From: Rahnella variigena
GTDB taxonomy: Bacteria > Pseudomonadota > Gammaproteobacteria > Enterobacterales > Enterobacteriaceae
Assembly (NCBI RefSeq): GCF_003610915.1
Contig: NZ_NSDJ01000001.1
Span: 2,046,001-2,110,000, forward strand
Direction of reading: 5' to 3'
Length of the DNA stretch: 64,000 bases
Of the stretch, positions 8,334 through 45,468 are shown piece by piece. Each line of letters opens with the position of its first letter. The first letter of the stretch is position 1. Below the pieces are notes generated by a model that worked only from the letters and a program-made list of their open reading frames with translations, did no database searches and was not told the DNA's origin. The position numbers were made by a program, and so were the translations under genes.

Positions 8334-8468
8334 CCGGTTGATGTCATAAGGCGATTAAAGGCCTTTTTGACAGCAGAACAAAGCAACAGAAAGCCAGGAG
8401 TGAGAGCTTTATCGCTTATTACCATCAGAATTCTGGACAAAAGTGAAATCTGTTGCTGTACTGTATTT

Positions 8469-8485
8469 GACACACATTTTGTGTC
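8469..8485 (+). promoter_or_regulatory. hairpin in the cspE leader
   Basis: GACACA and TGTGTC form a six-base stem around a five-base loop, 26 bases before the cspE start. Cold-shock family leaders are often structured; the function of this one is not known. Confidence 0.4.
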
Positions 8486-8510
8486 CAACATTCACGTAAA
8501 GGTAAGTTTG

Positions 8511-8720
8511 ATGTCTAAGATTAAAGGTAGCGTTAAGTGGTTCAATGAATCTAAAGGTTTTGGTTTCATTACCCCTGAAGATGGCAGCAAAGATGTTTTC
8601 GTTCATTTCTCTGCTATTTCCAGCAACGGTTTCAAGACCCTTGCTGAAGGCCAGCGCGTAGAGTTCGAAATCACCAATGGTGCCAAAGGCCCGTCGGCTG
8701 CTAACGTTATCGCTATCTGA
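8511..8720 (+). CDS. cspE: cold-shock-like RNA chaperone CspE
   Basis: 69 residues starting [20 protein letters not shown], matching E. coli CspE nearly throughout. RNP1 (KGFGFI) and RNP2 (VFVHF) are intact. It binds single-stranded RNA and DNA and melts RNA hairpins, including at transcription terminators. I place the start at ATG 8511, after AAGG at 8499-8502; the upstream in-frame extension has no family support. A strong terminator follows. The position matches E. coli, where crcB comes next; here a tetR-MFS pair is inserted between them. Confidence 0.96.
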
Positions 8721-8734
8721 CTTTAGCCGAATTC

Positions 8735-8764
8735 TAAAAAACCCGCCGAAGCGGGTTTTTTTTT
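8735..8764 (+). terminator. cspE terminator
   Basis: ACCCGC-cgaa-GCGGGT stem (8741-8756), extended by A and T tracts; nine T residues follow. It also serves the convergent MFS gene. Confidence 0.9.
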
Positions 8765-10686: not shown

Positions 10687-10788
10687 AGTATAGGCAATAA
10701 GGAGGAACAGGTAAATATTTGTATTATGAATGGAATGAAAAGTGACGTTTAGTTTCAGCGCCATTACGCACGACGCTGAAATGCAAAC

Positions 10789-10811
10789 GGCGCAACCCAG
10801 AGGAATGCGCC
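10789..10811 (-). terminator. hairpin after the 30-residue microprotein gene
   Basis: GGCGCA (10789-10794) pairs with TGCGCC (10806-10811). On the minus strand it is followed by GTTTGCATTT. A second inverted repeat, TTTCAGCG / CGCTGAAA at 10753-10781, lies beyond it. Confidence 0.5.
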
Positions 10812-10860
10812 GCTTACGGAAAAGGGAGAAGTGATAACACTACGGGCAAGGCATTGTTAT

Positions 10861-10953
10861 TCAGGCAAAGTATGCCTGTAAAAAAGCGACAACAGTCAGA
10901 ATACAGAGAGCAACAACCAGAAGCTCAGAAGACGTTTTTGGAACAGAAAACAT
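10861..10953 (-). CDS. 30-residue single-span membrane microprotein (candidate)
   Basis: A short frame: ATG at 10953-10951, TGA at 10863-10861. The Shine-Dalgarno GAGGT lies five bases before ATG. The product begins MFSVPKTSSE and then has one hydrophobic segment of about 18 residues (LLVVALCILTVVAFLQAYFA), so it should be a single-span inner-membrane protein. The C-terminal F-L-x-A-Y-F recalls MgtS and the general build recalls PmrR, but such short hydrophobic matches prove little. A hairpin follows. A GATAAT hexamer about 45 bases upstream of ATG could be a -10 element. It lies between tetR and crcB. Confidence 0.6.
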   Translation of the reverse strand: MFSVPKTSSELLVVALCILTVVAFLQAYFA

Positions 10954-11108
10954 GCCATACCTCGAAAATAGACCAGAGTGAACTGACGCTATTATCGGTA
11001 CAGAAGATGAAGGAAACATTAAGAAACGTCGGAAGGATAAGAACCTGTGTCACAAATTTAGGGCAGCGATGCCTTTTGTCATAAAAAAAGCATCGCCGGA
11101 AGATAGTA

Positions 11109-11492
11109 TCAGTGCGCGCTGAACCAGCTGACCAGCATGAAGGCCAGTAACGTCATGGCCAGGGAACCGGCAAGATTGAGCGCCATATTAAGCAGGGCGG
11201 CACCAAAACGGCCATCCTGTAACATGTACACGACTTCCAGTGAGAAGGTGGAGAAGGTGGTTAAACCGCCGCAAAAACCGGTGGTGATCAGCAGTTTCCA
11301 CACCGGATCAATATGGGTCAGACGGGTGAAAAGGGCGATACACAGACCAATAATAAAAGCGCCGACCAGATTCACCGTCAGTGTACCCACGGGCAGAACC
11401 GGGCTCATCCCGTTCATTTTGAGGCTGACATACCAGCGAACCACGCTGCCAATACCACCGCCAATAAAAACTGCAAGTAAGGTGCTAAACAT
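11109..11492 (-). CDS. crcB: fluoride channel CrcB/FluC
   Basis: 127 residues and four hydrophobic segments. Signature stretches are present: [10 protein letters not shown] (11-20), N41 in the TLTVN stretch, and [12 protein letters not shown] (72-83), which includes the Phe/Thr residues lining the pore in Fluc channels. It works as a dual-topology dimer exporting fluoride from the cytoplasm. The gene order after cspE agrees with E. coli. I looked for the fluoride riboswitch in 11493-11560 and did not see its conserved GAUGG core. Confidence 0.93.
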
Positions 11493-44767: not shown

Positions 44768-44842
44768 TGGCTGGGGTGCCAGGATTCGAACCTGGGTATG
44801 CTGGTATCAGAAACCAGAGCCTTACCGCTTGGCGACACCCCA
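44768..44842 (-). tRNA. glnV: tRNA-Gln (anticodon CTG)
   Basis: 75 bases with encoded CCA. The anticodon loop TTCTGAT gives CTG, which reads CAG. It is the last gene of the six-gene operon. E. coli has two tandem copies here (glnV, glnX); only one is present. Confidence 0.95.
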
Positions 44843-44886
44843 ATTTTGTTTCTCACTACCTTTTGAGCAGTGTACTGCAAGTAAAA

Positions 44887-44963
44887 TGGTGGCTACGACG
44901 GGATTTGAACCTGTGACCCCATCATTATGAGTGATGTGCTCTAACCAGCTGAGCTACGTAGCC
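44887..44963 (-). tRNA. metU: elongator tRNA-Met (CAT)
   Basis: 77 bases with encoded CCA. The anticodon loop CTCATAA gives CAT. The acceptor G-C pair at the end and the body match metT/metU elongator tRNAs, not the initiator. Confidence 0.94.
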
Positions 44964-45055
44964 AAATTTTACTGACTTACTTCAAAACTTCAAGCACTAA
45001 TTTAACTAACTTAATAATAAATTTCAAGTGCTTACCAATTATACAGAAAGAAGTA

Positions 45056-45130
45056 TGGCTGGGGTACCTGGATTCGAACCAGGGTATGCTGGTATCAAAA
45101 ACCAGTGCCTTACCGCTTGGCGATACCCCA
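45056..45130 (-). tRNA. glnW: tRNA-Gln (TTG), promoter-distal copy
   Basis: 75 bases with encoded CCA. Anticodon TTG reads CAA. It differs from the next copy by a compensatory T-stem change (CCTGG/CCAGG instead of CCAGG/CCTGG) and one variable-loop base. Confidence 0.95.
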
Positions 45131-45200
45131 ACAGTACAACTTCTTCAAATTGGATTTTCCTCACAAACACATCAGTAAAGCAATGTGAAAGATAAGAAAA

Positions 45201-45275
45201 TGGCTGGGGTACCAGGATTCGAACCTGGGAATGCTGGTATCAAAAACCAGTGCCTTACCGCTTGGCGATACCCCA
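45201..45275 (-). tRNA. glnU: tRNA-Gln (TTG), promoter-proximal copy
   Basis: 75 bases with encoded CCA and anticodon TTG. The T-stem arm is CCAGG/CCTGG, shared with the tRNA-Gln(CTG) gene of the same operon. Confidence 0.95.
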
Positions 45276-45298
45276 ACTGTGCTACCGATGTCTGGAAA

Positions 45299-45383
45299 TG
45301 GTGCGGGAGGCGAGACTTGAACTCGCACACCTTGCGGCGCTAGAACCTAAATCTAGTGCGTCTACCAATTTCGCCACTCCCGC
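45299..45383 (-). tRNA. leuW: tRNA-Leu (TAG)
   Basis: 85 bases with long variable arm and encoded CCA. The anticodon loop ATTTAGG gives TAG, reading CUN codons. Confidence 0.95.
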
Positions 45384-45391
45384 AAAAAAGA

Positions 45392-45468
45392 TGGTGGCTA
45401 CGACGGGATTCGAACCTGTGACCCCATCATTATGAGTGATGTGCTCTAACCAACTGAGCTACGTAGCC
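45392..45468 (-). tRNA. metT: elongator tRNA-Met (CAT), first gene of operon
   Basis: 77 bases with encoded CCA. Nearly identical to the copy at 44887; differences are in the D-arm (CAACTG) and one T-loop base. It is 33 bases from the predicted transcription start. Confidence 0.95.

Follow-up and report, generated by a model that had tools for sequence, protein, structure and literature searches.

The stretch of Rahnella variigena DNA analysed here (the window, 64,000 nucleotides) carries, all on the same strand, the fluoride channel gene crcB, a frame of 30 codons that starts 155 bases after it, and next a gene for a TetR-family regulator (Table 1). Translation of the frame yields MFSVPKTSSELLVVALCILTVVAFLQAYFA and then a stop, bearing out the original prediction of a 30-residue minus-strand frame between tetR and crcB. 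The Shine-Dalgarno that had been placed five bases from the ATG is present, and the hairpin expected after the frame turned out to be two. The best 19-residue Kyte-Doolittle mean of the peptide is 2.54 and its composition is that of a single-span protein, again as foreseen. An in-frame extension to 52 residues (10861-11019) is not favoured and was set aside, because its start would fall inside the PmrA box described below and because stops interrupt the upstream frame at loci L011, L013 and L014, at distances of 15, 4 and 4 codons from the ATG, respectively. Two RNA features lie elsewhere in the window, a cspA-type thermoregulator RNA (8345-8764; Rfam RF01766, 112.9 bits) and a minus-strand cluster of six tRNA genes (44771-45468).

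Table 1. Features at the crcB-linked peptide locus, in window coordinates.
Feature	Position	Strand	Remarks
Two hairpins 3' of the peptide gene, possible transcript end	10755..10817 (10783-10817 and 10755-10779)	-	fold of 10755-10860, z -5.5
30-codon gene, predicted PmrR-like membrane peptide	10861..10953, stop codon included	-	14/14 Rahnella genomes, pN/pS 0.16
Shine-Dalgarno GAGGT	10959..10963	-	5 nt before ATG
-10 hexamer GATAAT	10991..10996	-	10 nt after PmrA box
Predicted PmrA (BasR) box CTTAATGTTTCCTTCAT = CTTAAT-N5-CTTCAT	11007..11023	-	11 of 12 half-site matches
Hairpin (14 bp) that separates crcB from the peptide promoter, perhaps the crcB terminator	11064..11098	-	z -3.0
crcB, fluoride channel, conserved upstream neighbour	11109..11492	-	NF010792, 174 bits

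The 30-codon frame is a real, conserved gene, as follows from its presence in all 14 Rahnella genomes and from a pN/pS of 0.16 across their coding sequences, which are all distinct. The encoded peptides are 76-100% identical over at least 29 of the 30 residues, every locus keeps the ATG, and GAGGT is found in 13 of the 14 loci (GAGGC in L008). The synonymous excess is also evident in the variable columns, which fall at codon positions 3, 1 and 2 in the numbers 26, 10 and 5. The check in relatives that had been proposed at the outset therefore came out in favour of a genuine membrane microprotein gene without a curated model, with frame, start and Shine-Dalgarno all retained. No NCBIfam or Pfam model matches the window peptide, and a search of a 5.8-billion-protein database with the 52-residue version as query returned three 30-residue proteins, the window peptide itself and two at 93% identity, all without a name. 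The strong hairpins 3' of the frame could be taken as marks of a conserved regulatory RNA or leader in which the frame is incidental; however, the low pN/pS and third-position excess, an amino acid pattern kept across genera, and the lack of any Rfam match at the locus make that reading extremely improbable.

A profile built from 28 relatives of the window peptide and holding no PmrR row (A1; 26 crcB-linked sequences and two from loci L031 and L036) has M1, P5 and E10 invariant and K6, C17 and F24 in at least 90%. When the window peptide was searched against 295 genomes of the broad family, 34 genomes matched at E <=1, and crcB was nearby in 23 of the 30 loci returned. A pattern scan of a collection of named species recovered 42 loci, in Rahnella, Yersinia, Serratia, Ewingella, Hafnia, Chimaeribacter, Edaphovirga and two further Enterobacterales. 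All 42 have crcB upstream in the same orientation, with 74-188 bases between the end of the crcB match and the ATG. Note that the scan pattern includes the PmrA box, so that the boxes of these 42 loci are no independent evidence, while the crcB neighbour is. At the level of the order (394 genomes, E <=0.01), 22 genomes gave matches, 17 of them in the peptide's own family and five outside it, a search that suggests that the peptides are confined to that family. The five outside matches were judged spurious, with best boxes of 7-8 of 12 positions and internal stops in two.

The promoter, with its PmrA box and -10 hexamer, had escaped the original prediction and is the key to the identity of the peptide. 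According to the accessible text of PMC3973317, half-sites CTTAAT or CTTAAG set five bases apart are PmrA boxes of Salmonella and Klebsiella. The box of the window is identical in all 14 Rahnella loci, and among crcB-linked members recovered through protein similarity the leaders share one standout block, CTTAATGTTTYCTTMAT, with a -10 hexamer usually ten bases on (L019, L023, L027 and L029 depart from the block by one or two bases). The same layout precedes E. coli pmrR (CTTAAGGTTCACTTAAT, ten bases, CATACT), and a simple pattern found the 10-nt spacing between box and -10 in 47 of 58 leaders, including most E. coli-type pmrR leaders. The pattern CTTAAKGTTNNCTTMAT has a single match in the 5.5 Mb genome, at the window box, which shows uniqueness and not discovery since the pattern was written from this peptide family. 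In Rahnella, CTTAAGGTTAAATTAAG also stands about 130 bases before the conserved N-terminal motif of arnB in 14/14 genomes (with a one-base variant in one), and arnB is the first gene of a PmrA-activated operon in enteric bacteria, as the accessible part of PMC4244539 has it. As read from the sequence, the peptide gene has a predicted PmrA-type promoter of its own. The hairpin between crcB and this promoter, together with the two hairpins 3' of the peptide gene, fits a separate short transcript, and crcB and the peptide gene would thus be carried on separate transcripts.

Some leaders hold a further element. The Shine-Dalgarno of E. coli pmrR (leader L041:4087-4112) falls within a perfect inverted repeat, CTCTCCTCC...GGAGGAGAG, and Serratia leaders L018 and L020 have a counterpart, CTCATCCAG...CTGGATGAG. 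Judging from the -10, the transcript start may fall inside the left arm of the repeat, in which case the repeat may work at the level of DNA and not of RNA.

PmrR of E. coli (NF033224; b4703) is a peptide of 29 residues, and by hydropathy the window peptide has the same build, about 30 residues with a single predicted membrane span. The original Salmonella PmrR paper is said to be that of Kato et al. 2012. The two peptides have in common an equal spacing of E, L, S/C, F and W/Y along the helix, a PmrA box with its -10 ten bases on, and genomes that encode LpxT and PmrAB. They differ at the N-terminus (MFSxPKT in the window peptide versus MKxR in PmrR), at one position of the helix (C17 versus S14) and in location. 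The window gene follows crcB, whereas pmrR overlaps the end of pmrB on the opposite strand, an overlap given for E. coli in the accessible text of PMC8129183. The same text, and that of PMC4244539, in their accessible parts, report inhibition of LpxT by PmrR in E. coli and Salmonella. In the Rahnella genome itself the window gene is the sole family match; the PmrR query gave none there, and no copy overlaps the end of pmrB.

Homology of the window peptide to PmrR is detectable at the profile level. Aligned by hhalign with a profile of 12 PmrR sequences (A2), A1 gave an E of 2e-5 and a probability of 77, gap-free over 24 columns. E. coli PmrR scores 22.9 bits on A1, and its shuffles reach at most 9.3 (485 of 500 scored). 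In whole-genome searches with A1, pmrR was the top match in 7 of the 16 genomes that have it, including the E. coli-like genome G245 (E 0.004); it ranked lower in one of the other nine and was missed at E <=10 in eight. Identity is modest, 33% to E. coli PmrR in a joint profile with three PmrR rows (A3) and 19-33% across those rows. The curated PmrR model NF033224 (cut-off 30 bits), on which E. coli PmrR scores 74 bits, matches neither the window peptide nor any tested relative from Serratia, Yersinia or of the Chimaeribacter type. Peptides L037, L102, L107 and L109, all behind PmrA-type boxes, have sequences between the crcB-linked and PmrR groups; on NF033224, below its cut-off of 30, L107 scores 19.4, L102 15.7 and L109 13.1 bits, and L037 has no match. 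L037 lies just before eptA and L102 and L107 near basS, while the flank of L109 showed none of basRS, eptA and crcB. From its sequence, the window peptide appears to be a remote relative of PmrR that has escaped annotation. The remark in the original prediction that the overall build recalls PmrR holds at the level of profile and promoter architecture, and the identity that it left open can be largely closed, because the window peptide groups with this known peptide.

The second resemblance that had been proposed, to MgtS (E. coli b4599), did not survive. MgtS is a small protein under PhoPQ control that partners with MgtA, and the sole point linking it to the window peptide is the C-terminal F-L-x-A-Y-F; MgtS itself ends in FLAAYF-SHKWDD, so that the motif is not at its end. 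It scores 3.9 bits on A1, a value that 4 of 459 scored shuffles equal or exceed, and it offers no profile similarity. Its locus is another one, with no PmrA box before mgtS (best 9/12), and of the three A1 matches in G245 none but pmrR is a frame of about 31 codons. We consider an MgtS-like microprotein barely credible.

To survey the family we ran A3 over the 295 genomes and chose 40 further matches by E-value and short frame, with their promoters unseen. A box of at least 11/12 lies within 170 bases of 37 of the 40, two of the others having 10 and one 9, and control windows, one per locus, reach at most 9. Nine matches of the same E range (from small genomes, second matches and one congener) had initially been left out; added later, they contributed one box of 12 and eight of 9 or less, giving at least 11/12 in 38 of 49, a count that stands apart from five more matches of that range with frames of 391-558 codons. 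Among eleven still weaker matches the box was 11-12 in three and 8 or less in eight. Matches with and without a box separate cleanly: those lacking one resemble chance frames and are near none of crcB, basR, basS and eptA. The exception is L192 (box 9), found close to proP, where E. coli pmrR is located as well.

The pooled set of 88 peptides comprises the 40 promoter-blind ones and 48 kept once frames and boxes had been seen; dropped from it were L030, L033, L039 and L040 from the window-peptide search and L101, L104, L105, L106, L108, L110, L112 and L113 from the PmrR queries (best boxes 7-9). A box of at least 11/12 precedes 80 of the 88 and one of at least 10/12 precedes 87, counts that are not independent since many of the peptides are closely related. 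The controls comprised 352 windows, none at 11 and one at 10, and 1760 shuffles, none at 11 and 34 at 10. By location, 41 of the peptide genes follow crcB in the same orientation, another 41 are neighbours of basS, basR or eptA, and the fetched flanks of the remaining 6 show none of these genes. This is one peptide family with two standard genomic homes. No genome was seen with verified copies of both kinds, crcB-linked and pmrAB-linked, second matches having been examined in part. Genome G251 has two PmrR-like peptides (L037 and L213), each with a PmrA-type box, one of them just upstream of eptA. Locus L233 (genome G239) encodes a peptide beginning MSYFPKTSVEF behind a box of 11/12, with neither crcB nor pmrAB within 2 kb, and is possibly a third home.

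That the gene follows crcB in the same orientation in 41 of the 88 pooled and all 42 named loci might indicate that its product serves the fluoride channel, as a small subunit or as a regulator, and that the two genes are co-transcribed. Against this, the peptide gene has a PmrA-type promoter of its own and in the window a hairpin separates it from crcB, 41 of the 88 homologues sit beside pmrAB or eptA instead, and no crcB was found in the fetched flank of L036, which keeps the window's next gene (MocR type, 58% identity), nor at L031 of the same genus. A partnership with CrcB is consequently very unlikely.

The genomes supply the parts that a PmrR would need. LpxT of the window's own genome (64% identical, E 3.6e-94) lies in the order yeiR-lpxT-mepS, and BasR and BasS (56% and 52% identity) are encoded at a locus separate from the peptide gene. 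This basRS locus (L126, C1:193000-208000) has no eptA beside it, the adjoining gene being read by eye as dacB. LpxT is found in 174 of the 295 genomes overall and in 87 of the 87 that hold pooled peptides, an association inflated by genome reduction, since many of the genomes lacking LpxT are small; it is also present in the four genomes added with the later-fetched matches. A verified peptide is missing from 83 of the 174 LpxT genomes, and some members will have been missed because the E value of a true member can be 0.1 or higher. In 13 LpxT-lacking genomes larger than 3 Mb, drawn from the matches listed, there was no verified peptide, the box having been checked in four (G149, G159, G243 and G297). 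Other matches checked from LpxT-lacking genomes, five and a further four (G235, G202, G078 and G205), had no box above 9/12.

Taken as a whole, the evidence points to a gene switched on by PmrA whose product, a PmrR-like peptide of the inner membrane, restrains LpxT, a reading to which we assign a probability of roughly 0.75; homology and promoter are read from sequence, and expression and LpxT inhibition are inferred. Upon stimulation of the sensor PmrB/BasS, phosphorylated PmrA would bind the predicted box, and transcription would start some 30 nt 5' of the ATG. The peptide would insert in the inner membrane as one helix, and the face formed by E10, C17 and F24, which lie seven residues apart and hence on one side of the helix, would bind and restrain LpxT, which places a second phosphate on the 1-position of lipid A. 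Such restraint would lower the negative charge of the surface and leave the site free for other PmrA-induced modifications. Supporting this reading are conservation and selection, the box, the profile homology, the shared promoter layout, the linkage to pmrAB and eptA, and the LpxT and PmrAB orthologues. It is weakened by the lack of a match to NF033224, the modest identity to PmrR, the failure of pmrR to rank first in 9 of 16 genomes, the position of the Rahnella gene away from pmrAB, the confounded LpxT association, and the varying equivalent of E10. In the 12 PmrR sequences the three positions correspond to E7, S14 and F21; S14 and F21 are invariant and the E7 position varies (E/K/T).

Neither promoter nor homology bears directly on the partner, and the peptide is widely diverged from PmrR. 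It could instead be a PmrA-regulated relative of PmrR that acts on EptA, ArnT or the sensor PmrB, and the genome does encode an EptA-like protein (44% identity; C1:2868866) with a box-like site upstream (11/12). However, LpxT is kept in all 87 genomes with pooled peptides, and the known PmrR acts on LpxT according to the accessible part of PMC8129183. We hold a partner other than LpxT to be unlikely, and LpxT is the preferred target.

The suggestion that the gene is truly undescribed stands, as far as our search reached, for the crcB-linked branch, which no NCBIfam or Pfam model covers, but not for the peptide as such, which groups with a known one. Our literature search, which left most subscription papers outside, found no description of this branch and no paper that pairs PmrR with crcB. 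The accessible parts of the literature examined treat PmrR for E. coli and Salmonella alone; in those of a Y. pestis peptide survey (PMC8563848), PmrR appears only in the introduction and crcB is absent from the main text, and a Yersinia copy might stand without a name in the supplementary lists of that survey.

Promoter box and weak profile together can identify microproteins that neither could identify alone. In a bolder and unlikely extension, PmrR would be just the known tip of a wide range of fast-diverging, PmrA-switched membrane peptides found throughout the broad-sense Enterobacteriaceae; these would have two standard homes, and in the crcB-linked branch the partner or mode of contact would have changed. 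If true, one response regulator would tune different lipid A enzymes in each lineage through a microprotein family. The LpxT reading would imply that microprotein feedback on lipid A phosphorylation is far more widespread, through genes absent from curated family models. Some of the genera that carry these genes are known for intrinsic polymyxin tolerance. The many divergent natural variants may also help to map how a helix of 30 residues restrains a lipid phosphotransferase.
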